From positions 551,001-615,000 of the forward strand of contig CAJNDT010005001.1 of NCBI GenBank assembly GCA_905221615.1: a stretch of DNA of 64,000 nucleotides, written 5' to 3'. The notes below the pieces were generated by a model. That model saw only the letters and a list, made by a program, of their open reading frames with translations. It did not search any database and was not told the DNA's origin. Source of the stretch: Symbiodinium sp. CCMP2592 (taxonomy: Eukaryota; Sar; Dinophyceae; Suessiales; Symbiodiniaceae). Positions 11,351 through 56,323 of this stretch are shown here, piece by piece (position 1 is the first letter of the stretch; every line of letters begins with the position of its first letter). Both the position numbers and the translations under genes were made by a program.

Positions 11351-12155
11351 TGCCGCTGGCGCGCTCCCAGCTTCACGTCTGCCTTGTCCTTCTCAACGCG
11401 CCGAAGCCACCGGACACCAATGCTCTTGGCCTTGTGCAAACGTGGCATTCGTCATAGGGTTTGAAGGCACAAGCTTTGGGAGTTTCCGAACATAGGGGAC
11501 CCTGATATAATACCCTAAATAGTACGATCCTTATTGCAGGGACCCCAAAATAAGGTACCCCCAAATTTCGGAAACTCCCATTTCGAACCCCACAGAGGTT
11601 TCGCAAGCCTATCCTGCTCCCATAGCACCCTGGAAGGTGAACCCGGCCTTCAAGTCAACCGCAGACTTTAGAAGCTGCCCCCACCCTGTAATAGTGACTA
11701 TAAGGATTATATGAATATTATATTAGGGCCCGATTATATTCCTATTATACCACTATTACAGGGTGGGGGCAGCTTCTAACGCAGACTGCAAAACATAGCG
11801 ACATCGACAATTTTGTGAGTCGCAGCCTGGCAACTGCAGTACCTACAAAAGTCCACAACCCTGATAGTAGATACCGCCCTAAGGGTCCAAGTACCTAATA
11901 ATCATGTTTTGGCTCCCACTTGGCTGATCCGATAATCATATACTCTTTTATATAATTTTGAGGTGCACTTCTCTATCCTAAGCCCAAGTACCCAATTATT
12001 TGGTTTTTTTGGACCCTAAGGGCTGTGCCTAGGACCCCACCCACTCTTTGCGGGCTCTCAGTACCAATTCCTCGGCGTTGATTTCCTGGAAGCTGGCTTT
12101 GATGCGGCAGGCCTTGCTCAGGGCTTCCGCCGTCACCCGAGAACGGTTAAGGGCC
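11351..12155 (-). CDS. Two exons of a basic, helical protein
   Basis: Exon 12041 to about 12155 (minus) reads VTAEALSKACRIKASFQEIN, then AEELVLRARKEW, before GTGGGG. Exon 11351-11430 reads AKSIGVRWLRRVEKDKADVK, then LGARQR, with acceptor CAAG|G and a consensus donor GTGAGC. Phase 0 joins phase 0. Amphipathic, charged sequence suggests alpha-helix. The intron between them holds three MITEs (11477-11580, 11676-11780, 11876-12028). The 5' boundary of the first exon is unclear because the upstream 40 bases are telomere repeat. Confidence 0.5.
11477..11580. mobile_element. MITE family, arms TGGGAGTTTCCGAAAAT
   Basis: A palindrome with arms TGGGAGTTTCCGAA and TTCGGAAACTCCCA and an interior with ATAGTAGGATCCTTAT. 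This is the most frequent family here. Further copies are near 17586-17670, 32340-32463, 37685-37876 (two), 39001-39115, 41540 (one arm), 42297-42407, 43615-43712, 49773-49878 and 61060-61172. At 42.3 kb it fills most of an intron. Confidence 0.75.
11876..12028. mobile_element. MITE family, arms CCCTAAGGGTCCAAGTACC
   Basis: Palindromic arms CTAAGGGTCCAAGTACC and GGACCCTAAGGG. Related copies are near 21712-21805, 23440-23550 and 28893-29000. A variant with GGGTCCATGTACCC arms occurs near 15715-15838, 38405-38508 and 40120-40230. Confidence 0.65.
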
Positions 12156-13436: not shown

Positions 13437-16428
13437 AAGCTGTTATCGTAGCTGTCTTCTGGTTGCAGTAAGTGTACCCGACCCGGATTAGTGCTAGCCG
13501 TTGATTCTGTGCCACGGCGCCTGCAAGACCGCCAGCTGAAGACATCGAAGCTTACCAGGAAGTTGGTGTCTACATGATTAGATCGGGCCAATGCTCTGAG
13601 GAGCTTCTCTGGGCAGTTATACAGTAAGACTATATGCAACACCCGAATAACACCCGAATCCCCCCCAAAGACTCATGGCAACAGCCTCGAGGCTTTAGCA
13701 TTTTTTGAGACTGAAGAAACAAAGGAAAAGGAGTCTAGACCCAAGAGTAAGCTAGGAATAAAAAGGGTGCCCTTTTTGGTTTAAAGGGGCTTATAAGGGA
13801 ACCTAAACCCTCAAAAAAAGGGAATAAGGGCCTACTCTGGGTCCTAGGAGTAAACCCTAAATAAGGACCCTGAACTCAGCGGAGCGACAAAATCGAAGGA
13901 GCTCAGGAGCGGAAAAGGAGGATTGTCATCGGGGGCTTCGAGAGACTAATTGGAAGATGATGGTATATTTATTTACTAGGTTGGCCCTTCAAAGCCTCTG
14001 AAAAATATTCGTACATAGGGTCCTATTATGCCCAATAAGGGAAAATATAAAATGTCCCAAAGGCCTACCTAGTTTACAATAAGGAAACCTAAGGAATAAT
14101 CATGGTAATTGTTGAGGCTTCTACAGTAGGGAGCTTCGAAAGACTGGGGCTAGGCTCCATGGTTTGAGGATCCTGATACCAAGTAGCCGATTATGCAGCC
14201 TTTCCGTCAGGAGCCACTTAGCTTTTTTCTTTTATTACTCGTTCGTGGAGTAATGGATACTCTTGTGCTACGACGGTATGCACAAAGATAATGTATACTC
14301 ACTGGCCCAACACCCAAGGAACAAAAGTTGCAACTTTCAGAATCGACTACCTTATAACATGCCCAATAGTTGAAAAGTTGAGATTATCTGTGTAACAGGT
14401 TTTGGAGGTATTTTATGGCGTTCGTACTTGCTGAGGTCTGTATAGTTCACCATGCAGGCGTTTTGGAGCAGTGTGTGAAGAGTATGCATGAGGTTTCAAG
14501 GTATGCGCTGTGGTTCTATGCGAAGTTCGGGGGCCAGGTGCAAGGCATACCTGTTGCTTCATGAACTGCTCATAGGCTTGTTGGCTGATCCGGATGCTAG
14601 TAGCTGCCTCGTCTGTCCACTTGTCCTCCTCGGGGTTCAGCTCAGAGGCGAGCCTTGCGTGAGCTGTTGATGTGGAGTATTGCATGTGCCGAGGTTTTCT
14701 GGGACGCTGCGGAGTTAACTACAGACGTGACTACACGGTACGTACAAGCATACAGCATGTTAACCAACATGTACCTAGACCAAATCTTGAGAAGTATGGC
14801 GTTGAGGATCGTAGCGGTTTGTGCTTTCGGCGATGTTAGATCCAGGACCGGAAGCAGGGAACTGAAGTGCTGACAAAGACAGGAGCGATTGGCACAGCCC
14901 CACGTGTGATTGGAGCTGTAAGCTTGAACTGCGGACGTCAAGCATGAGCTTATTAAAAAACAAGAAGAGGTAGGTTCCGGGGTAATATATATTTCACAGT
15001 AGTTATAAGTTATAAGAAGCAACCCCCAGATAGCTTTGGCGAATACTCCCCCCCACATTAGGGTTTGGAGTTCCAGGAAACGGTAAGAAGCGAATCTGCA
15101 GCAACACTGCTCGAGTGTTGGAGGTTGCAGCTAAAGCGAACTCAGAATGAAATTCACCGCCAAGGCAGCAACAACAACAAAATGCACCAACCCATAAAAA
15201 CCGGAACCGACAAGAGACGACCGAACAGCAAACCGATTCGTCTCGTACCCAGGCCTTGCAATACCCCTTAATTGAGGAAGATATACATTAAGTTATGGCA
15301 AGATCCCGGGTACGAGTTGGGATAGGTTCATTCCTGAATTCAAGCCATATTCGAAGTCCCTGGTCCGCTAATCCTACGATTGTAGAGGGCGGCTCGTCCA
15401 AAACATAACATTGCCCAGACCTGCTCGCATACTGTACGCAAGTATAAAAGAGTCACTCTAATATCTAAACCCCAAACCCCCAAGCCCTAAACAACTTAAA
15501 AAAAAAAAAACTATGCGCAAAACTGAAACCCCCAAACCCTAAACAACTAAGAAAACCCTATACCCTAAACTGAAGAATCCGAGAGAGTCGGCAAACCGGG
15601 TAAAAGCTTGAGAAATAGGCTGTAATGAAAGTATTGTAGTCAGGTGGAAGCTGTACTAATCCCTAAGGGTAATAGGCTGTAATGAAAGTATTGTAGTCAG
15701 GTGGAAGCTGTACTAATCCCTAAGGGTCCATGCACCCATATAGAGATACATGAGCCCCAAAGTACCTATATACGGACTTGACTACATTAAGGCCAATGTA
15801 TATGCTATATGAGTACATGGACCCTCAGGGAACCCTAAACCATAAAGCCTAAACCGTGTTTACCGCAACCAGTTCAGGACTCCCCCGGTAGCACAGTTGG
15901 AACAAACAGGACTGGACCTCTCGGCTGCATCCTGCAAGTTTCAGGAACATGGGTGGTTGTCAAAATTGGGACCCTTTCTTGGGTACCCTAAATATTAGGT
16001 GCCGTATTATAACTGATGTCCGTTATTAATAATAATAATGATATTATTAGGGACCCAAAAAGGGACCCTAATTTTGACAACCACCCACATGTATAATGCG
16101 TAAGGCTGTAAACGTTGAGAGTTTGTTGGCGAGGTCACGAAGTGTCAAGTCTGCATGTGCGCGTCCTTCGTGGCACGACCACTCCGACGAAGAATCCCTC
16201 AGCCAAAATGCCTGACCCTCAGCATCGCAAACTCTCAGTCCGAAACCCCTACCCTGGGGATCAAAATAGCCCAAAAGCCTTATATAGTATGGTCTTTGGG
16301 CCCACAAGCCTTCATGTATGAGTCCTTAGATCCCTAGGGTTAACCAAAACCCACAGCAGCTACGCCCCAGCCCTGGAACCCTGCATCGATCGGTCAAGCC
16401 GCATATTGGGATCCAGTGTAAACTCTGC
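13437..16428 (-). CDS. Thirteen-exon gene fragment, unknown protein
   Basis: Minus exons are 16428-16380, 16231-16089, 15931-15864, 15619-15571, 15431-15314, 15130-15082, 14928-14781, 14640-14551, 14426-14397, 14228-14180, 13935-13869, 13595-13556 and 13506-13437. The reading phase agrees at all twelve joins. Marker peptides are EFTLDPNMRLDRSMQ, CDAEGQAFWLRDSSSEWSCH, RSSPVCSNCATGGVLNWL, CYVLDEPPSTIVGLADQGLR, SNIAESTNRYDPQRHTSQDL, NPEEDKWTDEAATSIRISQQ, KWLLTERLHNRLL and NQRLALIRVGYTYCNQ. Introns are mostly 120-275 bases and many hold one MITE of a different family (16.3, 16.0, 15.8, 15.3, 14.3, 14.0, 13.8 kb). No start or stop codon is assigned; a further exon may lie near 13300-13410 (RRTVEQTRYPMSQLLAQELV). 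I do not recognise a domain. Splice sites were chosen by eye, so single edges may be wrong. Confidence 0.62.
15614..15727. repeat. Exact 57-base tandem duplication
   Basis: 15614-15670 and 15671-15727 are identical. The unit contains the intron 3' end and first bases of the exon at 15619-15571 (minus strand) plus one end of the MITE at 15717-15838. Confidence 0.92.
15950..16088. mobile_element. MITE, arms TGGGTGGTTGTCAAAATT, at a splice donor
   Basis: Palindromic arms GGGTGGTTGTCAAAATT and AATTTTGACAACCACCC. On the minus strand its terminal GTGGGT is the donor of the 16231-16089 exon. A second copy is at about 60885-60990, with no exon seen next to it. Confidence 0.75.
16252..16342. mobile_element. 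MITE family, ends CCCTGGGGATC / GATCCCTAGGG
   Basis: Shares the interior CAAAATAGCCCAAAAGCC and TGGTCTTTGGGCCC with copies at 21800-21915 and 37268-37362. Here it lies in the first intron of the 13-exon model. Confidence 0.65.
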
Positions 16429-16971: not shown

Positions 16972-17447
16972 TCAGGGGTTGAAATTAAACAAAGGATTTG
17001 AGCGCTTATTGGTAGAGGCCTTGCCAACTTCAAAGATCATGCACACTTCTTGGAGGCCCTTTTGACTTAGTAAGTAGGGTTAGTAAGGTGGGTTATGGGG
17101 ATTATAATAGGGTTTCTGGGGGATACTAAGTATAGACTTACTAAGTCAAAAGGGCCTCCAAGTTGTGAATGCGATAAAGACAGTTGCCAGTTGAGGCTCT
17201 AACACCTGCGTGCCTACGCACAAGCCGTAACACTGGACTCCCGAAAGGCTAGACCCCTGAACCTAGCAACCAAAAGATTCAGCCCGTACATGGGGAGAAC
17301 ACCTAAACATTGAATCCCAAGCCCGCCTTTTTTAAGCACGGACTAAGCCCCCCAAAACCCTAACCCTAAACCACCAAAGAAGCCTCGGTAGTGGCATTGG
17401 AGAACTTGCAGCCAAGACCGATCGACACGTTGTCGAAGAAGGCCTTT
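16972..17447 (-). CDS. Three-exon 3' gene end, unknown protein
   Basis: Minus exons are 17447-17372 (KAFFDNVSIGLGCKFSNATT, then EASLV), 17256-17206 (SSLSGVQCYGLCVGTQ) and 17019-16972 (STNKRSNPLFNFNP, then TGA). Phase 0 is kept at both joins. The first donor is GTTTAGGG, at the start of a short telomere tract. The second intron holds a MITE (17049-17162). A MITE (17477-17570) also precedes the first exon. Function unknown. Confidence 0.48.
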
Positions 17448-19757: not shown

Positions 19758-20446
19758 ACCCTAAACCCTAAAGGTCTAAACAAACGCTGGAACCTCGGAA
19801 TCTTGACCCGTCCCATTCACTTGTCGCCTGTTGCTTGGAGCATCCCGAGCAACCGAAGCCATTAGGAAAACCCCAAACCCTCTAGACCCAAAGCCCCAAC
19901 TTTCATAGCGTAGATCCTAGACCCTAACCTGCAAATCATGGACACTTAATCCCGAACCCTAAACCTCCAGCCGAATGTACAAAATATACGGGAGTACCTA
20001 AAAAAACACCCTAAATAGTAAGATCCTTATAATCAGGATCCCAAAATAAGGTAGCCCTTATTGTCGGGAGCCCCCTTTTCGTGGCCACCGCGGCTTACTT
20101 TGGCGCTGAAGGCTCAACCCGTGATTGGAGACCCACGGCCCCCACAGCTCAGTGCTTTGGGGTGAATGACACTACTTGGAGGCCCTTTTGACTTAGTAAG
20201 GTTAGGGGTTCCTTTAAAGGGGTCCTAAAAGGGATCTATAGGGGTTCCTTAAAGGAATCTATAGGGTTTAGGGCTTCTTACTTGGAGGCCCTTTTGACTT
20301 AGTAAGTAGGGTTAGTAAGGTGGGTTATGGGGATTATAATGGGGTTTCTAGGGGGTACTAAGTAGACTTACTAAGTCAAAAGGGCCTCCAAGTACCAAAC
20401 CGAAATCCTGCATGTTGAATCTTGAAGACCGAATACAAAGTGAAAC

Positions 20447-36905: not shown

Positions 36906-38127
36906 CTTTGCCCAATAAACCGACTAAGCCCTAAACCCTAAGCGCCTTGCTATGTTGCAACTGGGCTTGGGGACTAGCTACCCAGAGGCTCCATGGTAGT
37001 TCCTTTTTGGGATTACCTTATAGGATTCTATATATGAACCCCAAAAAAGCGGACCCCGACCTTCCAAAAGCCCCTAAATTGAGGAAGATACCTTAAATCC
37101 TGTTAGGGGCCCTAATATGAGTTAAGGTATATTCCTTAATTAAAGGATTTTGGAAGTTCTGCGTGGGGGGGGGTGCCCTAAAGCCTCAAACCTAAACCCT
37201 TGACCGGAAGCCCTACGCCCCCAAGCCCTCACCCATGCTTCATGATCAGCAGATTTAAGGTTCAGGATCTATCCCTGGGCATCAAAATAGCCCCAAAGCC
37301 TTATCTAATATGGTCTTTGGGCCCGAAAGCATTAATATATGAGTCCTTAGATGCCTAGGGTATGGGGTTTAGGGTTTAGGGCTTTTTCTCTGGGGATAGG
37401 TTTAGGATCTATGGGGTTTTGGGTTCATGGCTTAGGCTTATATGGGGCTATTTTAGGATATGGGTTTAGGATCTATGGGGTTTAGGGTTCAGGGCGTAGG
37501 ACCTATGATGGGGATATAGGGTAGAGGGACATGTTTGGTTTAGCTTCTTCGGAGGGCTCTTTTCCGTCTGCACGTGGCTACGAGCTGCGGAAGCCTCCCT
37601 GAGGCGTGGCTTAGTTTAGAGTTTTTAGGGTTTAGGCTCTATGGGGATATGGGGAAAGGGGCCTAATTTTGGTTCGGTATAGCAAAATAAGGAGTACCTT
37701 ATGTTGGGCTCCTTGAAATAATGATCCTACTATTTAGGGTACTATATATTAGGATCCCATACTTTCGGAAACTCCCATATGGGAATTTCCGAAAACAAAG
37801 GACCCTCATATAGTACCTAAATAGTAGGGTCCTTATTACCAAGACCCCAAAATAAGGTACCCCTAATTTTGGGAAACTCTAAACTCTTACAGTAACCCTT
37901 CAGGAATCCTTATAGTAACCCTGAAAGGGATCCCTTCCGATCCAAACTTTGGCGATCTCAATTATTCTTGTTAGTATTGTTATGACTATGATTATTAATC
38001 TTAGTAGTATTATGAAGACTATTAATACAATTATTAGTCATATTCTGAACATTTTTCATTACTCAAATTATATTGTCGTCTTCGGGCTTTCAAAGCGGCC
38101 CCTCCACACAGAGCCCAAGCCCTAAAC

Positions 38128-38676: not shown

Positions 38677-40805
38677 CTATCTAAAAAACAACTACCCGTT
38701 TGGCTCTTAGCCTAAATATCCAAACCTTAGAAGGGGCCCCCACCCTGTAATGGTGGTATAATAGGAATATAATAGGGCCCTTATATATAATCCTTCTAGT
38801 CACTATTACAGGCTGGGGGCAGCCTTGTAATCCAAACCATTCAAGCACCGTACTTGGAGGGTCGGGGGACTTAGTAAGTAGGTAGTAAGTAGACTTATAA
38901 GTACCCTAAAAGGGACCCTATTTGGGGTTATGGTACTTATAAGTCCCTAAAATAACCAGTTACTACGTCCACCGACCCTCCAAGTACGGGCTCTGCGAAA
39001 TGGGAGTTTCCGAAAATAGGGGGTACCTCATTTTGGGGTCCTTATAATAAGGATCCTAGTATTTAGGGTAGTATATTCGGGCCCCCTATTTTCGGAAACC
39101 CCCAAATGGAACTTGGCAGGTTTCTGGTAGACCAGGGTTCAGACCGCTCGGAGAGGCAGGGTTTAGGGTTGAGGGTTTTGGGTTAAGATTTGAGTGTTTA
39201 GGGTTAAGGGTTGAGGGTTAAGGGTTGAGGATTTAGGGTTAAGAGTTGAGGGTCTGAACCCAGGGGTTGAAACCCTCAAAAAGTGCCCAAAGTCTCAAAA
39301 CAAGAACTTAATAAAACCCCTTAGGCTTATAGTAAACCCCATAAAGTTGGAAACCGGATCAAGGCCAAATAGTGCTGGGATTCCCTATACATTACTCTTA
39401 AGGAGTGAGGCTATTAGGTTTCCAACTTTTGGGCTTCTACTGTACTTGGAGGCCCTTTTGACTTTGTAACTAGGATTAGTAAGGTGGGTTATGGGGATTA
39501 TAATAGGGTTTCTAGGGGATACTAAGTAGACTTACTAAGTCAAAAGGGCCTCCAAGTAGGGGTTTAGGGGTTTGAGGAGATTCCTTGGGCTGTGTCCGCA
39601 CCCAGATGTTGCAAAGACATCTCAGTTGGTTCTAGGTGCCCCAGTAGCCCCTTTAAAAATAGCCCTCAAAAATAAGGGTACCATTTGTTGAAGTATATAT
39701 ATATATAAGCCCAAAAAGACAAACAATGAAAGCGGGCTCTACTGGGAGACTTTATGCTCAAGAATAGAGCTGACGCTATGAAAGGGGGCCTCTGGCATGA
39801 TTGAGGCATTATGTTACGCACACCTTCAGACAGTATGACATAAGTAATGCATGAAAGGCAATCTTAGGTTTTTTAGACGTTATCTTTTGAGAAAGACGCC
39901 GCCCAGAAAAGCAAAAGTCTACTACTGGGGGTACCTCATGTAACAACCCTCAAACTCCTAAAAGCATACCAGACCATTTAGGCTATATAGAGCCCTGTAT
40001 TCATCCCGAAACAAAAACCGTAGAAGACCGTACAGAACATGATCTAGACCCCGATCCCTAGCTAAACCCTAAAGGCCCTAAGCAAGCCCAAGCAGAGCTC
40101 CAACAAGCCTGTTAACCCTCAGGGTCCATGTGCCCGAATAGTATATAGAAACATTGGCCCCGTCGTATTTAAATAGGGACTACTTTAAAGCGAAAAAAGT
40201 ATATACGAGTATCGCACATGGACCGACGGAGTAAACCCTCAAAAAGCACGATGTGGGTAGTTGTGGAAATTATAGTCCTTCCGGGAAATCCGATATAATT
40301 TTACTTTGAAGATGCACCCTCAACACTTTGGAACACAAAAACTGACCTCAGGTCTCTATAGCCACGCATGCTTAGGGGCTGAGTACCCTAGCCCAAAAAA
40401 GGTTAACCTTTTCCCAAAAGCTTAAAAGTTACCTACGCAGGCACTAAGTTGGTGTTGCTGCACCCTAGACCGGAAACCAAAAAAACGGACCCTAGTCTTG
40501 ACCACCACACTAATACCTAAACCCTGCACTGTATAGACCTTAAACCCTTATAAACCCTAAACCCTGAACGCTATAAACCCTAAACTCTGAACCCTAAATT
40601 CCGAAAACCCTATGAACCCTAATCAAATTTCTAAATCCCAAACACTGAACCCTAGAAGCCCTACCTTGACCCTGAATAACCTACCTTTTTAGGGTTCCTT
40701 ATTCTGATTTCCTTATACAAGTCCTTAAAAAGATAGATCCTTCAGGGTTAAGGTACACCCAAAATCCCCTAAACCCTAAACCCTAATCAAAAGCCAACAT
40801 CCCAG

Positions 40806-41868: not shown

Positions 41869-42424
41869 TACTACGGTGTCGGGTCTACAGAGCTACTAGG
41901 CCCGATAGTTTTAAGAACCATCATCCTAAAGCCAAGTCTGACTGTAGGAAGAAAGTGCGCGCAGGTAAAAGCTTGCCAACCGAAGAATCCTAAACCCTCA
42001 GCATTGGCTTGGAGCATCCCGCAGATCACTATCTGCAACTAAGCTAGATAGAATTATATGAGATCCTCAACAAGAACGCACCAAACCCCATATTTCCCTG
42101 CACTAGGCTGCCCACTCCATCGAATTCCGGTATAGCCTGAGCCGTTCGAAGGCTTACATCACAGGCTCTTCTAGTGTTTAGGGTACAGTGGGTCAAATGT
42201 CATTGACTCAATGACGTTGTTGACAACCCTGCCATGTGCCTGTGAACCCAAAGCCCTGAACCTTGAACTCTAAGCATGACCATTTGCAAGGTGAAGTGGG
42301 AGTTTTCGAAAATTAGGGGTACCTTATTTGGGGGGTCCTTATAATAAGGATCCTACTATTTATTAGGGTACTATATTAGGGTCCCCTATTTTCAGAAACT
42401 CCCAAGTCTAGCAGCAGCTTTCAG

Positions 42425-43322: not shown

Positions 43323-44180
43323 GATGTATAGCATTTTTCCACAGCAAGGACAAGCAACAAGAACTACGCAGGGGTGTTTGGTGTAGACTCTGCTTAGAAG
43401 GAACGGTGAATCCCTATACAACACAAAAACTCTGAACCCAGACACCTCGGGGGTTCAGGAAATCCCTAATTAAACCCTAACCCCTGTGTAGGCTAGTTCA
43501 AGGATGTTCAGGGTTTAGGGAAGGTTCAGGGGTTGGGGGTTTAGGGTGGAGGCTAGTTTAGAGGTTCTGGCTCTCCTTAATGAGGGGCAGGGATACCTTG
43601 AGGTAGCAACTACATGGGAGTTTCCGAAAATAGGGGACCTTAATATAGTACCAATAGGATCCTTAATATAAGGACCCCAAAACAAGGTACCCCCAATTTT
43701 CGGAAACTCCCACATAGGGCTCACCATTGCAGGGACTTGCAGGGGCTTGATGGAGTTGGAGGATGGATAGGGTTTAGGGTTTAGGGTTTAGGGATAGGCA
43801 TTCCGTTTGATTGCAGACCAGTGGTTGGGAAGAGGTTACAGGTTTCAGGCCATGAAGATTAGGGCTTTCCGTCCATTGCTATGTGAAACCACCAGGGCTT
43901 AAGTCGAGACACCCCGAAGCCCAAATTTCCGAAGCCTAAACCAAGGGTTCAGGAACGCCGGCGCCCGGAGCTCTGTTGTTTGCTGGCGATGCCCTGACAT
44001 CTACACCCTTTGACACCCAAAACCCCGAAAAACCCAAACCTCTAAAGGCCTAAACGCCAAAGCCCTGCGACGCGGAGTCCTTGTCTTTGGGAAGACGCAC
44101 CAGCCTGTAGCAATCAGCGTAAAAGAGGCTATACTGTTAAACAACCTTTATACGCCCCCAAACCCTATTCCTAATTAGGA
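43323..44180. other. Intergenic or intronic stretch
   Basis: Contains a MITE at 43615-43712, short telomere tracts near 43510 and 43770, and degenerate CCCTAAA sequence. No exon that I can support. Confidence 0.4.
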
Positions 44181-44185
44181 TGCCC

Positions 44186-44665
44186 CTATAGTATACTCTC
44201 GTCCGGGTGTCGTCGGAGCATGGGTCGGTGTGAGGGGGGTTTAAAGGGCCTAGCAGGGTCCCATGAGTGCTCTTTGAGCGCTTCTTCAAGGTTCGATAAA
44301 GGCTTTAATATCCAGTGGGCTTTTCCGAAAAGCATCTCGCATCGCTCATAATTACGCAAATCAAAAAGCATAAGAACCACCTTAGAATTTCCTACGACGC
44401 CTACACCGCCACGCTTGTCCGTTTTTGCCAACTAGTCTGGGCACCCACTTTGCGATTCTACTGGTGTTCTCCGCCGACCGTCGGCGGACGACCTCATGGC
44501 CGACGCACACCTGGCATCCTTCATTCTCGTGAAGAGCCCGAAAGCGCCCTCGTTGTGGTAAACAGGATCCCACATGCTGTGGCTAGTCCGCGTCCCACGC
44601 AGCAGAGCCAAATGAAGATGCGGTGCCCAACTGTAGAGCGTGGCTGAGACTGTCTTCCCTTCCAC
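44186..44665 (-). CDS. Coding region with one in-frame stop, probable small intron
   Basis: The minus frame 44665-44435 reads LYSWAPHLHLALLRGTRTSH, then SMWDPVYHNEGAFGLFTRMK, then TAG at 44432-44434. The same frame continues 44431-44186 with KVVLMLFDLRNYERCEMLFG, then KAHWILKPLSNLEEALKEHS. A 30-base GTAGAA...ACTAG segment would remove the stop and keep phase. The end lies at a MITE edge with a GTATAC donor. A pseudogene is the alternative. Function unknown. Confidence 0.42.
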
Positions 44666-44999
44666 GACAATGTCCTGTCATTTATGCTCACATCTGTGCT
44701 GGTTTAGGGCTTTGGGGATTTAGTTTGTAGGGCTTTAGATTTGAGGGTTTTGGGCTTAAGAAGTTTGAAGTTTTGCGGTTTTCGGTTTCGGGTGTCCCTA
44801 AAAGCCCTTATAAATCCTCAAGATGTCCTGAGTTGCTGCTTCCGTTGGGAGGCCACGCTTGTCAGCCAACCACCAGAAATCCCGCCAGCAGACGGTCCGA
44901 ACATCCTCCTGTGCAGGGTTTAGGGATCAGAGTCTAGGGTGGATTGTACCTTAAATCGTATAGAAGGATCCGCATTATGGCTCAAGGTCTACGTTGCCT

Positions 45000-47170
45000 T
45001 ATGGGGCTTGTCTTAAACGCTTTAAAGTAGTTTCCTTGTTCCCAGAAACCCAATACCCCTTAATCAAAGAATATACCTTAAATCATAATAGTAACATTAA
45101 AACCCCTATTATTTAAGTCATGATATTAAAACCCCTGTTATTTAAGGTATGTATCCTTAATTAACTGGTACAGTAGAAGCCAGAAAGTTGGAATATCATT
45201 ATCGTAACCCCTTTAAGGTACATTATAGGGGATTCTACCATGAATCCATATTCCAACTTTCTGGAGTTCCCTTTATTGGGATCTTTGGATTACTGGGTTT
45301 GGGAGTCTCTGCCTCTCCGGCGAAGAACCACAAAGGAAGCTTTTCAAGCCTGGCTTCAGGGATTTAGGGGTCATTGGGTTTAGGCTTTCAGAGCTTAGGG
45401 CTTTAGGGTTTTGGGGTCTGGCGTCATTGGGTTTGGGGTTTTAGGGTTTAGGGTTTGGGGGGGACTGGAAGACTCACTAATATTACCCCTTACAGTCGCC
45501 AAAAAGGCTGTACGATGATATACCCCCAAAACCTATTCCGACCTTAACCTACCAAAACCTACTTTTTGATAGGGTCCCTATAAATTCCATTTGAGGGTTC
45601 AAAATCAGAATCCACAAAAAATAGGGTTCGGTAGTTTAAGGTTTTCTGATTATCATAAAGCCAGCCGAGGCGCTCGGCCAAGATGGACTCCTCCTGTTCC
45701 CAGCCGTCCTGGGGCCAAGCGCAGCAAGCAGCCATCGGTGCAACCTTGGTGACGGCTTGAAGTTTACAGAGTCATAGGGCCCAGACCTTCCAAAATCCCT
45801 CAATTAGGGAATATACCTGGGATTATAACAGAATCCCTCTTTTGAACTAAGGTATATTCCTTAATTAAGAGATTTTGGAAGGTCTGGGGGTTCAGGGTTT
45901 AGGGCTTACAGTGTCGAGCCTAGGGTTCCCTTAGGGAAGGCTCGTAAGCCCCAAAACCTCTGAGCCTGACACCCTACTTGGAGGGTCGGGGGACTTAGAA
46001 ACTGGCTATTTTAGGGACTTATAAGTACCATAACCCCAATTAGGGTCCCTTTTAGGGTACTTATAAGTCTACTTACTACCTACTTACTAAGTCCCCCGAC
46101 ACTCCAAGTAATGTAGGGTCTGCAACATGCTCTTACGATTGCTAGGCCCTAGGGTTTAGGGTTTAGGGGTATTAGGGTTTAGGGTTGGGTTACTTCTGCG
46201 TTCACGCATCACTCACTCCCATAGGGTACTAGGTACTTTTATGGGGAATAGCCCCCCAAATCATGAGAGTAGTTCCTAATGGAGACACCTGCATTGTACT
46301 ACGGTTGATGATACAAGTCCTGCATTACCTTAATGCCCCTAGACTATGGGAATTATGGTATATTCCTTATTCTAGGTAGTGCAGGGTTCATACCATCAAC
46401 CGTATATAGATACTCTGGACCTGTATCGGGAACTCTGAACCCTAAACCCCATATAGAACTCTTATAGCTCCCTTTAAGGATCCCTTTGAAGGTACCCCCC
46501 AATTCTCGGAAACTCCCATAGACCCTAGGTCCAAGGGTAAAAGGAGGGACCCTTAATAACGACCCCTTGGTATATACCCTTCATATAGCTATTATATACC
46601 CATTATATAGCCCATTATAGGGTAAGGGTCCCCATTAAGGATCCCTCCTTTTTCTTTGCCCAACCTCAATCAGGTTCCTACAGTATTGTAGTACCCTTAT
46701 AGACCCCTTAAGTATCCCCATATAGATCCCTTTAAAGGAACCCTAGTAAAGGGCCTAGGGTCCCTCGCTTTTCCCCTTTGGGAACCAAGGCGGCGACTGA
46801 GGCCAGGAGTGAGCCATAGCGGGAAGCCAAGGCCCAAGTCGCTTGCCCTCCCATGCTGTAGCCTAGGGTTTAGGGTTTAGGGTGCCGTAGCCTTTGACTT
46901 TTAAGGGTTTAAGGGTTTAGGGTGTAGCCTTTGACGGTTTTAGGGGGGATTAGGGGTTTAGGGTTTAGATTCTATGAAAGCCCATGAGGGTTCAGGGTTT
47001 GAGGCTTTAGAGCTGTAGCCTTTGAGGGTTTAGGGTTTAGGGGGTTAGAGGTACCTGGACCCTGAAAGTATGTAGAACAAAAGCCTTTTACAGGTCTTGG
47101 TCTTGGGCTGTATGTTGCCTACTTCTGGGGTTTAGGTAAGGGTTCGCGAGTTCGGATGTGGGGCTTTAAG
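45000..47170. other. MITE-dense region without a supported gene
   Basis: Holds MITEs near 45050-45170, 45172-45272, 45785-45890, 45975-46110, 46217-46410 and 46528-46670, and telomere-like tracts at 46860-47045. At 45661-45755 both strands read as good protein (plus KMDSSCSQPSWGQAQQAAIG; minus DGWEQEESILAERLGWL), so an exon exists there on one strand. Confidence 0.45.
46528..46670. mobile_element. MITE, arms GGTAAAAGGAGGGACCC
   Basis: Palindromic arms with TCCCTCCTTTTNCCC. A second copy at 57534-57660 begins exactly at a splice donor (CAAGG|GTAAAA). Confidence 0.7.
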
Positions 47171-48320: not shown

Positions 48321-49094
48321 TCGGTGATACCGAAACACCACTAATATCAGCGAACAGCAAAAACACGGCAAACAAAAAACTGACAGAAGGCCCAGACTAC
48401 AACATCAGATTCAGCTCCCTTTGTCCCTGTCACTCTCGATCTCTTGCTCGCTCGCTCGCTCACTCACTCACTCATTCAGTGCACGACCGACACATGCTGC
48501 ACAGTCTTGCCAACTTGTCCAAACATCGTTAGCCCCGAACCCGAAAACCCTAAACCCTCCTAAACTCTAAACCCTAGCAACAGCCTAGCAGCCCGTGACG
48601 TGCAAACGGGAGAGATCTGCTCTGCTGCCCAGATCGTCCAGAGCCGCAAGGAAGAACTCCCAAAGGATCTCGACAGCAAAACCTGGCTTAGGATTTGGGT
48701 TTTTTTCCCTCCTACCTAGCAAGGACGAAGCCCGCATTGCAGGGTATCTTGGTTGAACAGTGGATAGGCCACAATGTTAGTGGCAATTACAACTACCGAA
48801 CCGATTTGGGGTTTAGGGTTTGGGGTTGGGCAGCAACCTAATGAGTCTTACAGGCGTTATAGGGTTCCTGCAAGGGTTTCGTTAGAAACCTAACATATTC
48901 CGGGTTGAAACAAAAGTAGCATTCATTCCGTTTCTGGTAACTTAGCATCAGCCCAGACCTTCCCAAATCCCTCAATTAGGGGAATATACCTTAAATTATA
49001 ATAGGATCCCTCTTGTGAATTAATGTATATTCCTTAATTAAGGGATTTTGGAAGGTCTGGGAGCTTCCCTAGCAAGAGCCCAGACACACTTTAC

Positions 49095-49594
49095 GTAGGG
49101 CTCCTCAATCTGGAAGCGATTTCTTTTCAGCCACTCGGAAGGATGAACGACAGGCTCTCCAACCGATCCTGGGTTGTGCTTTAAACCCTTTGAAAATTAT
49201 TTATGAATAGGTTCCTTTTGCAAGGAAATGAGGGAAATTAAAAATTATCCCAAAGCACAACCCAGGATCCAAAAGGCGCGACGACAATGAACTCCTCACG
49301 CACCGTCTGGTTGTTTTCCTCACTGGCCCAAAACTCAAGGGAACAAAAGTTGAAACTTTCAACATCGACTACCTTTTAAGAACCCCGAAGGTTGAAAAGT
49401 TGAGTTTACAGCCAATAAGTTTCCAAGAGCTTCTCGATGTCCCACCATAAGGTCTCCGGGTAGATGTACGTGTGGGCACCATGAAGGAAAAGCAGAACTG
49501 GAAGAGGTTTCAGACCGATTGGGTTGTGCAGCAGGTAATGCTGCTCTCGCGAACCGAACCTTACTTCCCAACATATACTAAATCTCATTCTCAA
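49095..49594 (-). CDS. Alpha/beta-hydrolase fold protein, partial (three exons)
   Basis: Minus exons are about 49594-49410, 49322-49270 and 49168-49095. The protein reads HYLLHNPIGLKPLPVLLFLH, then GAHTYIYPETLWWDIEKLLE, then NNQTVREEFIVVAPFGS, then GEPVVHPSEWLKRNRFQIEE. The PLPVLLFLHGA segment is the typical beta-strand plus HG oxyanion motif of alpha/beta hydrolases (esterase or depolymerase type), and FIVVAPFGS fits the next strand. The catalytic G-x-S-x-G, Asp and His are not in these exons. Phases 2 and 1 agree. Both introns are MITEs: 49323-49409 (87 bases, GT-AG) and 49169-49269 (101 bases, best read as GA-AG). The donor after 49095 is GTAAAG. Upstream minus frame 49660-49760 (RSRRSNLSQLLRACSRVF) may be the 5' part. 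Confidence 0.62.
49169..49269. mobile_element. MITE intron with GATC target duplication
   Basis: On the minus strand the element runs CTGGGTTGTGC to GCACAACCCAG and is flanked by GATC on both sides. Removing element plus one GATC restores the hydrolase frame. It is related to elements at 7920-8030 and 13985-14090. Confidence 0.72.
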
Positions 49595-50069
49595 GATTAG
49601 GAGAACAGGAGAACTTTTGTACTATGCAACAGTAAATGTCCCGGATCCGACACCCTGAACCTCAAAGCTAAACCCCAGTCAACAAAAACCCTCGAACATG
49701 CCCGAAGAAGCTGAGAGAGGTTGCTTCTTCGACTACGGAGAACTGTCAGAGTCATCCTCTTCGACACAAAATCTGGGAGTTTCCGAAAAAGGGGTACCCT
49801 ATCTTGGGGTCCTTGTACTAAGGCTCCTACTATTTCGGGTGCTATATTAGGGTCCCCTATTTTCGGAAACTCCCATATAGCAAAAAACAAAACCGATTCC
49901 TAAGCCCAGAGGCTTGATCTTGCGGAAGAGCGAGCTTGGCACACTGGCACATGCCCACTCGTCTTGTGAATGTCCCTGCCTTCGGTCAGTGATTTTTGCG
50001 CAGATACCCTTCTAAACTATCCTCAGCTGCCTCTGGTCGCCGCCTAATTATGGCTTTTTGAACGAAGCA

Positions 50070-50300
50070 CTAAGCTCCCTGCCCTTCTTCGCAGGCTTGA
50101 CAACAATGAGTGTAGCTGTAGTAATGATGCCGCTCCGGGTGGGGGTGCCCACGTCGAACAAGAGCTGTAACCATGCGTTCCTTCGTCGCAGTTTAGGGTT
50201 TAGGGTTAGGGTTCAATTAGGGCTTAAGGGTTCCAACTACGGGCTTATTGTAGCAGCCAGAGTTTGCAAGGCTGAACGGGTTTGGACCGTAGTAAACGCT
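50070..50300 (-). CDS. Two-exon 3' gene end, His/Cys-rich tail
   Basis: Exon about 50294-50241 reads VYYGPNPFSLANSGCYNKP with donor GTAGTT. Exon 50180-50070 reads ERMVTALVRRGHPHPERHHY, then YSYTHCCQACEEGQGA and TAG. Phase 0 matches. The 60-base intron carries CCCTAA telomere-like sequence. An alternative frame of the second exon (WLQLLFDVGTPTRSGIITTA) is also open. Confidence 0.45.
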
Positions 50301-51446
50301 TACATCAACCAGTGAAGCGTGTGAACACGCATGTTAGCACACACACACACACTCACACACACACACACAAACATGAATATATCTAAGTACATATGTCTGT
50401 ATGAGTACACATGCGTTTAAAGCCGAATCAAAAAGCTTAGAGTTTGTAAGCCTGGTGTAAACATGTGTACATACACAAAACTGTGTTTGTATATACACAT
50501 AACCAAGGGTCACAGCCGGCACAAGCAAACCACCTTTCTTGCTGTTCCTCTTCGCGACCCGCGCCCGAATTGATGGACATGTCAACATCCGAATCCATGG
50601 CCGGGACGGTGGGTTAGGGCTTAGTGGCCAAGAGTCGGGAATTTCAGGAACACACCTGTAAAAAAAAACCAAATTTGTAAGGACACACCTTCCCAGGACC
50701 CGTCATAAAACAAACCCTACAGTACCTCGAGCATCATGGGACTGGTGAGTAAGGTTATAAGTACGTCGACTGAGTCATTTATAAGCTGCCGTATATATAT
50801 ATATATATATATATATATCCTTACGTGCTAGGTCCCACTGCCCTCCAAGTAAACCCACTACATCGTGTTGACTAGGTTCCTGAGTAGCCCATGTATAATA
50901 AGGGTGCCCTTTTTCCAAATAGTCGGTTTTTAGCAAAGGGGCCCTCAACATAAAAAAGGGCAAAAGGGTACTAGTCAGGAACCTAGTATACCCTGAGCTG
51001 CCATAGATCCCTTATAGAACCCCCTTGATGAGCCCTTTAAGAACCCCTTTAAGGAGACATGCTGGCCTAGGGTGCCAGGGCGCTGCTCGAGAGTGGTGGT
51101 TGGGCCGCGGTGTAGAATAGAGAGATGTCCCATGAATTTATTTGGAGGTTCATGGGACTTAGTAAGTAAGGTTATAAGTACCTTGATTGGGGTTATACCT
51201 AATTATAAGTATAATTGCCTTATTTATAACCCCACTTACTAAGTCCCATGATCCTTCAAGTAGGGTTTAGAGCCAGATTTCCTATGGGGCTTAGGGCTAT
51301 TAGAGTAAGATGTCCCATTGGGTTTAGGGTTTAGAGTATAGATTACCCCGGATCACTTACCAAAGTTCTAGCATCCCTGAGAGTCCCACATCCATGAAGC
51401 AGGGAGTCCTAGGATTAAAGCCGAAAGTATTTGGAAACAGGGTGCC

Positions 51447-53291: not shown

Positions 53292-54341
53292 ATCCTCCAG
53301 TTAGCACACAAAGGCGGTCTGAACGCTGAATCCCAGACACCCCTTCAACAACCCTCCAAACAAGCTATACTACAGGAGCCTTCACAACTCGATCGGGGTT
53401 CCTCATTTTAGCTACAGGGGCAATTGTGTTGTACCCCAAAACCTTTCTAATCATTAAAAACCTGAGCCCATTATAGCCCTGGAAACCATCACCCATTACC
53501 AACTCGGGTCGGCAGGTTGGTGGCACGTTCTTGTGGCACACGTGTTACCCAAAGCCCCGACAATGGGCATGACCGACCCTCTTCATAACATGCAGGTCAT
53601 GATTTTTAGATACGGGTTTAGGTTTTATGGTTTTTTCCCTCCTTGCTGGCAAGGGCTTAGGGTTTAGGGATTCCTAAACCACAAAAACCCGCTGATAAGC
53701 AGCACCAGCAACAGCACCAAGACCCGAGCCATGGTTAGCCTCCATCGCGGAATCCCACAACCCCATATAGCCAATCCCTAAAGCCTAAACACTACACCCC
53801 GAAACTCTGATATAAGGGCCTTAACTAATCATTAGAAAAGGGTTTTGGGCCCAATATACTAGAACTATTATAAGGCCCCCCCCCCCATTTTTAAGGCCCC
53901 TACAGTATAGTATTACAGTATAGTATATAGCCCCCGGGAGCTCCCCTCTTTCTCCTTTTCGCAAGGCTTCCTGGCTCAGCTTGGCGTTCGAACCCTGAGT
54001 TCGCCCGCGGCGAAGTCGATGACGAGACCCGCCATAGTGCCGTCGGGCGGGGCGTGCCAGGCGAGGCCAACCTGAGTTGGGCAACGCATACTTGGAGGCC
54101 CTTTTGACTTAGTAAGTAGAGTTAGTAAGCTGGGTTATGGGGATTATAATAGGGTTTCTAGGGGATACTAAGTAGACTTACTAAGTCAAAAGGGCCCCCA
54201 AGTACACATAACATACTGGACTTGTGCCTACACAAATACATGCAGACAGACAGGCAGGCAGGCAGACATATACATACACTCGTAAATACACGTGTATATC
54301 TATATCTATATATGTACATACACATGTGCATTCCATGATGC

Positions 54342-55457: not shown

Positions 55458-56323
55458 CTAAAATAGCTTTTCAGGTAGCAGAATATAGGTCCCGAAACCC
55501 TACTTTAACTGGTAAGGCCCCCAAAGTGATCGACATAGCCGTCCTGAGCCACAAACCCTAAACAGAAAAAAACAACCTAAACCCTAAACCCCTTTTTCCA
55601 CAGGCTTGATTAGTGCTCGCCCGGCCAGGATCCCCAAGCACACCGCACTCGTGGCGAGATGCTGAGGCTAAGTACGCACAATACGCATCCCTAAACCCCT
55701 GAAGCCTAAACCGTGGTCCTAAATCCTAGGCCACGGCCAGACCTAGCCTGGGCAGAGTCCGTCACAAAGGCACTCTCGGGCTTAGGCCAAGGATTCCTTG
55801 GAGGATGATGGGACTTAGTAAGTCAGGTAAACTTCTATTTATAATCCCAGTTAAGGTGCCTATAACGGTACTTACCAAGTCCCATGATGCTCCAAGTAAG
55901 GATAAGGCGCCCAATGGACTAATTTTGACAGTCGTTCTGGCCCATGTTCCCAGAGACTCCAATATCCCTTAATTAAGGAATATACCTTAAATTATAGCAG
56001 GATCCTTAATATGATTTAAGGTATATTCCTTCATTAAGGGATATTGGAGTCTCTGGGTTACAGGACCTGGAGGAAGCCAGGAGCCCGAAAAACGAGCCAC
56101 AAGGAAGCTGCGCAGCGGTTCTCGTGCGCTAGGGTTTAGGGTTCTGGGTTTAGGGTTTAGGGTTCTGGGTTTAGGGTTTAGGGGTTTTGGGTTTAAGGGC
56201 TGACCGTTGACACTGACCTGGGCGCCTCAGTCCTCTAACTTGCGGTTTCTGAAACAGGAGGCAGACATTTGGGTCCAGTTGCGATGGCAGTTACGACGAT
56301 CACCACCCCGAGGGCCCCATACC

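Follow-up and report, generated by a model that had tools for sequence, protein, structure and literature searches.

Two adjacent introns of a putative alpha/beta-hydrolase gene in Symbiodinium are very probably introners from unrelated MITE-like families

The window analysed in this work (the whole stretch of 64,000 nucleotides from Symbiodinium sp. CCMP2592) contains on its minus strand a complete gene of 12 exons and 11 introns, which extends from a start ATG at position 50598 to a stop codon ending at 44432. An earlier note on this DNA had referred to a hydrolase fragment, a description which is no longer appropriate given that all 12 exons of the 367-aa gene are located inside the window. 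The homologous protein P0003 matches the window by tblastn along the minus strand from 50601 to 44435, and exon boundaries were assigned by a junction search in which donors were restricted to GT, GC or GA and acceptors to AG. The best-scoring junctions involve five GA, four GC and two GT donors, while the acceptor AG is followed by a G at all 11 junctions, this G not being a requirement of the search. The three in-frame coding pieces described in the earlier note were indeed observed, and the palindromes in the two gaps between them (here designated M2, in intron 4, and M1, in intron 5) belong to unrelated families (Table 1). Its statement that both introns are MITEs holds in the sense that two whole elements belonging to different multi-copy families are present, these representing two introns of the eleven.

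Table 1 Features of the hydrolase gene, its introns and the associated elements (positions are those of the window)
Feature	Position	Strand	Basis
Intron 3, 354 nt, GC-AG	49560-49913	-	junction search
Exon 4 (FGSREQ...KLL), 136 nt	49424..49559	-	junction search, joined frame
Intron 4 (GAAA + M2), 105 nt, GA-AG, acceptor followed by G	49319..49423	-	best-scoring junction
M2 TSD copy GAAA, upstream on gene strand, provides GA donor	49420..49423	-	
M2 element, 101 bp, CTTATTGGC...GCCAGTGAG, imperfect TIR	49319..49419	-	ends and 4-bp TSD common to 30 unique copies
M2 TSD copy GAAA, downstream, provides G after acceptor AG	49315..49318	-	
Exon 5 (ENNQTVREEFIVVAPFG), 49 nt	49270..49318	-	junction search, joined frame
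Intron 5 (GATC + M1), 101 nt, GA-AG, acceptor followed by G	49169..49269	-	best-scoring junction
M1 TSD copy GATC, upstream on gene strand, provides GA donor	49266..49269	-	
M1 element, 97 bp, CTGGGTTGTGCTTT...AAAGCACAACCCAG, perfect 14-bp TIR	49169..49265	-	ends and 4-bp TSD common to 30 unique copies
M1 TSD copy GATC, downstream, provides G after acceptor AG	49165..49168	-	
Exon 6 (SVGEPVV...YVK), 81 nt	49088..49168	-	junction search, joined frame
Intron 6, 405 nt, GT-AG	48683-49087	-	junction search
Exon after intron 6	48593-48682	-	placed by P0003
M3, palindromic, CCCAGACC...GGTCTGGG, 110 bp, 2-bp TSD, inside GT-AG intron 6	48952-49061	-	
Further M3-family copies	45780-45888, 55949-56057, 37054-37161		
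Inverted-repeat element inside GC-AG intron 3, not itself an intron	49771-49878	-	

The joined frame of 367 aa is free of internal stop codons, and its product is identical to P0003 at 320 of 367 residues and to P0004 (from Symbiodinium natans, no closer relative carrying a species name) at 275 of 362 aligned residues. A decaying gene copy, in which the MITE interruptions are not spliced at all, would accord with the stop codons present in all three frames of both elements (stops in all three frames being found in all seven introns examined, M1 and M2 included), and also with a protein search of its own genome, where the three matches obtained all correspond to this locus and no second copy was found. 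Such decay is nevertheless scarcely credible for a gene with 12 of 12 exons open over 367 aa, with the above identities to P0003 and P0004, and with usable splice sites followed by G at each of its 11 acceptors.

With regard to the product, the 367-aa protein contains the sequence GYSMGG, which includes a G-x-S-x-G nucleophile motif (GYSMG), and the relative P0005 exceeds the cut-off of the Pfam Esterase family PF00756 (31.4 bits against a cut-off of 22). Therefore, the name alpha/beta-hydrolase, already used in the earlier note, is a fair one for the full gene, and the encoded protein is a likely esterase. When P0003, P0004, P0006 and P0007 were compared with Pfam, related models were matched, all of them below cut-off; the hydrolase fragment on its own matched no Pfam or NCBIfam family and produced a single, chance-level match (E 0.53) among solved structures. 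A structure model of P0003 was of low confidence (mean pLDDT 45.8) and was not used as evidence.

Introns 4 and 5 both consist, from end to end, of a repeated, many-copy element together with one copy of its target duplication (TSD). On the gene strand, the M1 site reads TTTTG/GATC-CTGGG...CCCAG/GATCGG and the M2 site CTCTTG/GAAA-CTTATTGG...GCCAGTGAG/GAAAAC (slashes marking the splice boundaries). Removal of M1 along with one GATC copy generates APFGSVGEP, as found in the homologues, all nine of which read FGS(V/I)GE across this site, while removal of M2 along with one GAAA copy generates KLLENN, again as in the homologues. The M2 site is covered by seven of the nine homologues, none of which has an extra residue there (the exceptions being P0002, which begins one residue before the site, and P0009, which lacks 18 residues upstream of it). 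The introns defined in this manner, TSD plus element, represent the best-scoring junctions against P0003 and leave the 367-aa frame without a gap at either site. For the first gap, which had been described as 101 bases, the length corresponds to that of the intron, the element itself being 97 bp (49169-49265) with GATC as its TSD.

The second gap had been described as an 87-base GT-AG intron (49323-49409), whose use would retain 18 nt of M2 in the message. This intron is canonical (GTAAAC...CCAG) and in frame with its flanks, though it adds six residues that are missing from all seven homologues covering the M2 site, and its acceptor is AG/T as opposed to the AG/G observed at 11 of 11 best host-gene junctions and, as reported for three Symbiodiniaceae, at 96-97% of acceptors (PMC10666404). 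Splicing of M2 as the 87-nt intron is thus very unlikely and was rejected on account of the six extra residues and the AG/T acceptor, although it is possible as a minor alternative isoform. The 105-nt GA-AG intron, with the element at 49319-49419, is the best-scoring junction at this position.

MITEs are short, high-copy elements with TIRs and a TSD of fixed length. M1 and M2 resemble them in all of these properties, being short (97 and 101 bp) and non-coding, with no coding capacity seen, and having TIRs, a constant TSD length and many copies. The two sequences are unrelated to each other and have only their CT...AG termini and TSD length in common. Both introns are predicted to form hairpins, their folding surpassing that of all 200 dinucleotide-shuffled versions (z -5.13 for M1, z -3.01 for M2), whereas the neighbouring 103-nt intron 2, used as a control, folds no better than its 200 shuffles (z 0.75).

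The assembly used for genome-wide counts comprises 1.1 Gb in 5383 contigs, in which exact matches to the 21-base spliced-leader sequence of dinoflagellates occur 217 times in forward and 212 times in reverse orientation (reversed control 0), which marks the genome as that of a dinoflagellate. A first look at this genome yielded 1088 candidates for M1 and 1471 for M2, and a 30-base end of M1, when allowing up to three mismatches, produced 513 matches (reversed control 0). Forty candidates of each family were scored, resulting in 64 rows for which both ends were found, corresponding to 60 unique copies (30 per family, the window's own included), and this set represents the best-scoring copies rather than a random sample. 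Among these unique best-scoring copies, the window's own again included, a perfect 4-bp TSD is present in 23 of 30 for M1 and 24 of 30 for M2. When all best-scoring rows are considered, flanks are identical at exactly 4 bp in 24 of 31 (M1) and 27 of 33 (M2), as opposed to 1 of 31 and 0 of 33 at 5 bp. A second, partial relative of M2 is located in the window at 14298-14386 (84% identical over 90 aligned positions).

The window was scanned for elements of 90-111 bp with CT...AG termini, the two ends being required to match at 14 or more of 20 positions and the 4-bp flanks to be identical. Eight places, including M1 and M2, were returned, and none in 20 simulated windows having the first-order composition of the real one; a stricter scan returned 21 places, with M1 among them and M2 absent. 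Rfam, searched with the window at gathering score, gave no match. Elements with CTTTTGACTTAGTAAG at 17059-17152, 20291-20382, 39455-39546 and 54101-54192 are each flanked by GGCC, which is probably part of the element rather than a target duplication, since these copies share a longer TIR-like context.

When the flanks of the 64 best-scoring rows are joined with one TSD kept, the median frame spanning the junction is 204 nt, compared with 207 nt for 2176 control positions. As a group, the M1 and M2 copies therefore look non-exonic, most of the 64 being placed outside exons by this equality, while intronic copies are indistinguishable by frame length; the host gene's own copies are likewise unremarkable because its exons are short. 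Five other copies are coding-like. Three of them (L061, L006 and L058) have spanning frames longer than those of at least 97% of controls, with Pfam matches above cut-off (Ion_trans, 2OG-FeII_Oxy_3 and MMR_HSR1) whose domains are located away from the junction. The remaining two are weak by length alone, L044 exceeding about 90% of controls without a Pfam match, and L017 about 66% with RCC1-like matches just below cut-off. All five have the same orientation as in the host gene, their targets (GAAG, GAAT, GTGC, GCGG and GAAC) all begin with GA, GC or GT (GH), and in each case the longest open frame before the junction agrees with that after it, an agreement which is partly circular as long frames were selected.

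Exact matches to the 5' end of the elements are preceded in the genome by GNNN in 82 (M2) and 41 (M1) cases and by DNNC in 52 (M2) and 20 (M1) cases. In a symmetric target set, targets that are G-first only outnumber those that are C-last only by 81 to 52 (p 0.015), or by 72 to 40 with GG excluded (p 0.003); the corresponding figures are 55 to 36 (p 0.059) and 47 to 26 (p 0.019) for M2 alone, and 26 to 16 (p 0.16) and 25 to 14 (p 0.11), not significant, for M1 alone, all p values being rough with duplicate copies counted in. The excess of G-first targets is consistent with retention of intron-capable copies, since G-first and C-last targets should be equally frequent under a target preference that ignores orientation.

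Further palindromic elements occur close to the two introns. M3 belongs to a third, nearly fully palindromic family, in which 16 of 20 listed copies have 2-bp flanks that are identical, and it does not end in AG. Readings of M3 as a third introner, and of the frame following it as a sign of decay, were both abandoned as P0003 positions M3 within the GT-AG intron 6 and identifies 48593-48682 as the next exon. The family of the element in intron 3 (GGGAGTTTYCGAAAA ends) has relatives in the window near 42298-42404, 43614-43711, 39002-39107 and 11477-11579. Thus, four mobile elements are present in 0.9 kb of the host gene, the two that are introns being the only ones with a 4-bp TSD and CT...AG ends. 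Introns 2 (49980-50082) and 11 (44675-44827) have their splice boundaries spanned by direct repeats (7 nt in intron 2, 5 nt in intron 11), with no clear TIR, and may be older, decayed introners.

Two relatives provide information on the state of the locus in which the elements are missing. P0001 and P0002 (121 and 91 aa, on contigs of 46,441 and 2,288 bases, respectively) look, from their sequences, like unspliced open reading frames: P0001 enters exon 4 through WEA, comparable to WEV at the end of host-gene intron 3, and both proteins continue past exon 6 into intron 6 (LWAPV, VWALARE), at which point P0003 joins FAVEIL. The unspliced nature of P0001 is deduced from the intron-derived residues at both of its termini, from intron 3 at one and intron 6 at the other. 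At the protein level, P0001 is uninterrupted at both the M1 and the M2 site, and P0002 at the M1 site, so that presence of the introns in the window is paired with the apparent absence of both in P0001 and of the M1 intron in P0002. P0002 furthermore continues beyond the position of M3 without containing it, and its initial M, where the window has L, is a weak hint that M2 is absent as well. P0003, whose contigs are at most 1221 bases long and which is for that reason probably transcript-derived, may come from a species which itself lacks both introns, and its continuity is therefore no proof of splicing. Since the unspliced frame of P0001 is uninterrupted at both sites, the M1 and M2 introns look like recent gains in a single 266-nt exon. 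Orthologues with the same two introns but without the element, which the earlier note had named in advance as evidence against its introner reading, were not encountered, the frames of P0001 and P0002 being uninterrupted instead.

An older intron at each position, largely replaced or filled by a MITE at a later time, may be envisaged considering that M3 and the palindrome at 49771-49878 do reside inside the larger introns 6 and 3. At the M1 and M2 sites, however, nothing besides TSD and element is present between the exons, the splice boundaries are straddled exactly by the TSDs and the coding sequence of P0001 is continuous, which together make such a history highly improbable. Introns 4 and 5 are thus very probably introners, as the earlier note had proposed, that is, two unrelated, short, non-autonomous TIR elements in what was one ancestral exon of 266 nt. 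Each element would have inserted into this exon, presumably in separate events and moved by a transposase acting in trans, and would have become an intron upon insertion. The insertion would have duplicated a 4-bp target (GAAA for M2, GATC for M1), the duplication thereby supplying the GA donor and the G that follows the acceptor, with the terminal AG of the element serving as the acceptor itself. Splicing of TSD plus element, as presumed for this strain, would then restore the message exactly.

More tentatively, every TIR element that has CT...AG ends and duplicates 4 bp of its target might constitute a ready-made intron wherever it inserts in one orientation into a GA, GC or GT target, an idea which is based on the tolerance of GA and GC donors and AG/G acceptors in this lineage. 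If true, ordinary and largely non-exonic MITE families would continually furnish new introns, and the unusual splice sites of dinoflagellates could be accounted for by these families themselves. The locus illustrates how target duplication can supply both a donor and the G after an acceptor, in agreement with the GA/GC donors and AG/G acceptors of dinoflagellates. Two unrelated elements, 49 nt apart, with GA donors and an open reading frame from a relative running through both sites make it an unusually clean test case for intron birth.

The arrangement may be compared with several published systems. The GA donors and AG/G acceptors of the host gene fit splice-site use in three Symbiodiniaceae, for which GA donors of 17.4-19.8% and AGG acceptors of 96.1-97.1% are given (PMC10666404). 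The introner elements of Amoebophrya are described as hairpin-forming, with inverted repeats at the intron ends and with the exon-intron boundaries spanned by 3-5 nt direct repeats, all of which M1 and M2 share; the splice motifs reported there are highly variable, whereas both introns in the current work are GA-AG followed by G (PMC7789003). Introners of the type found in the dinoflagellate Polarella glacialis (Roy et al. 2023 Curr Biol, via the review PMC11453091) belong to many families and are associated with recent gains, and M1 and M2 would similarly be distinct families making introns in dinoflagellate genes, in this case of another species. Gozashti et al. (2022 PNAS, PMC9860276) report, for 161/175 genomes, introners that are enriched in genes, unlike the 64 best-scoring M1 and M2 rows, which look non-exonic by frame length. 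The closest correspondence is with the introners of S. microadriaticum, for which a 4-bp TSD, TIRs, an element-borne 3' splice site and a TSD-derived 5' splice site are described (PMC9860276), and which M1 and M2 resemble in their 4-bp TSD, TIRs, element AG, TSD donor and predicted exact restoration of the message. The mechanism is consequently one that has already been published for that species, and the M1/M2 pair is of a known introner type rather than of a new kind.
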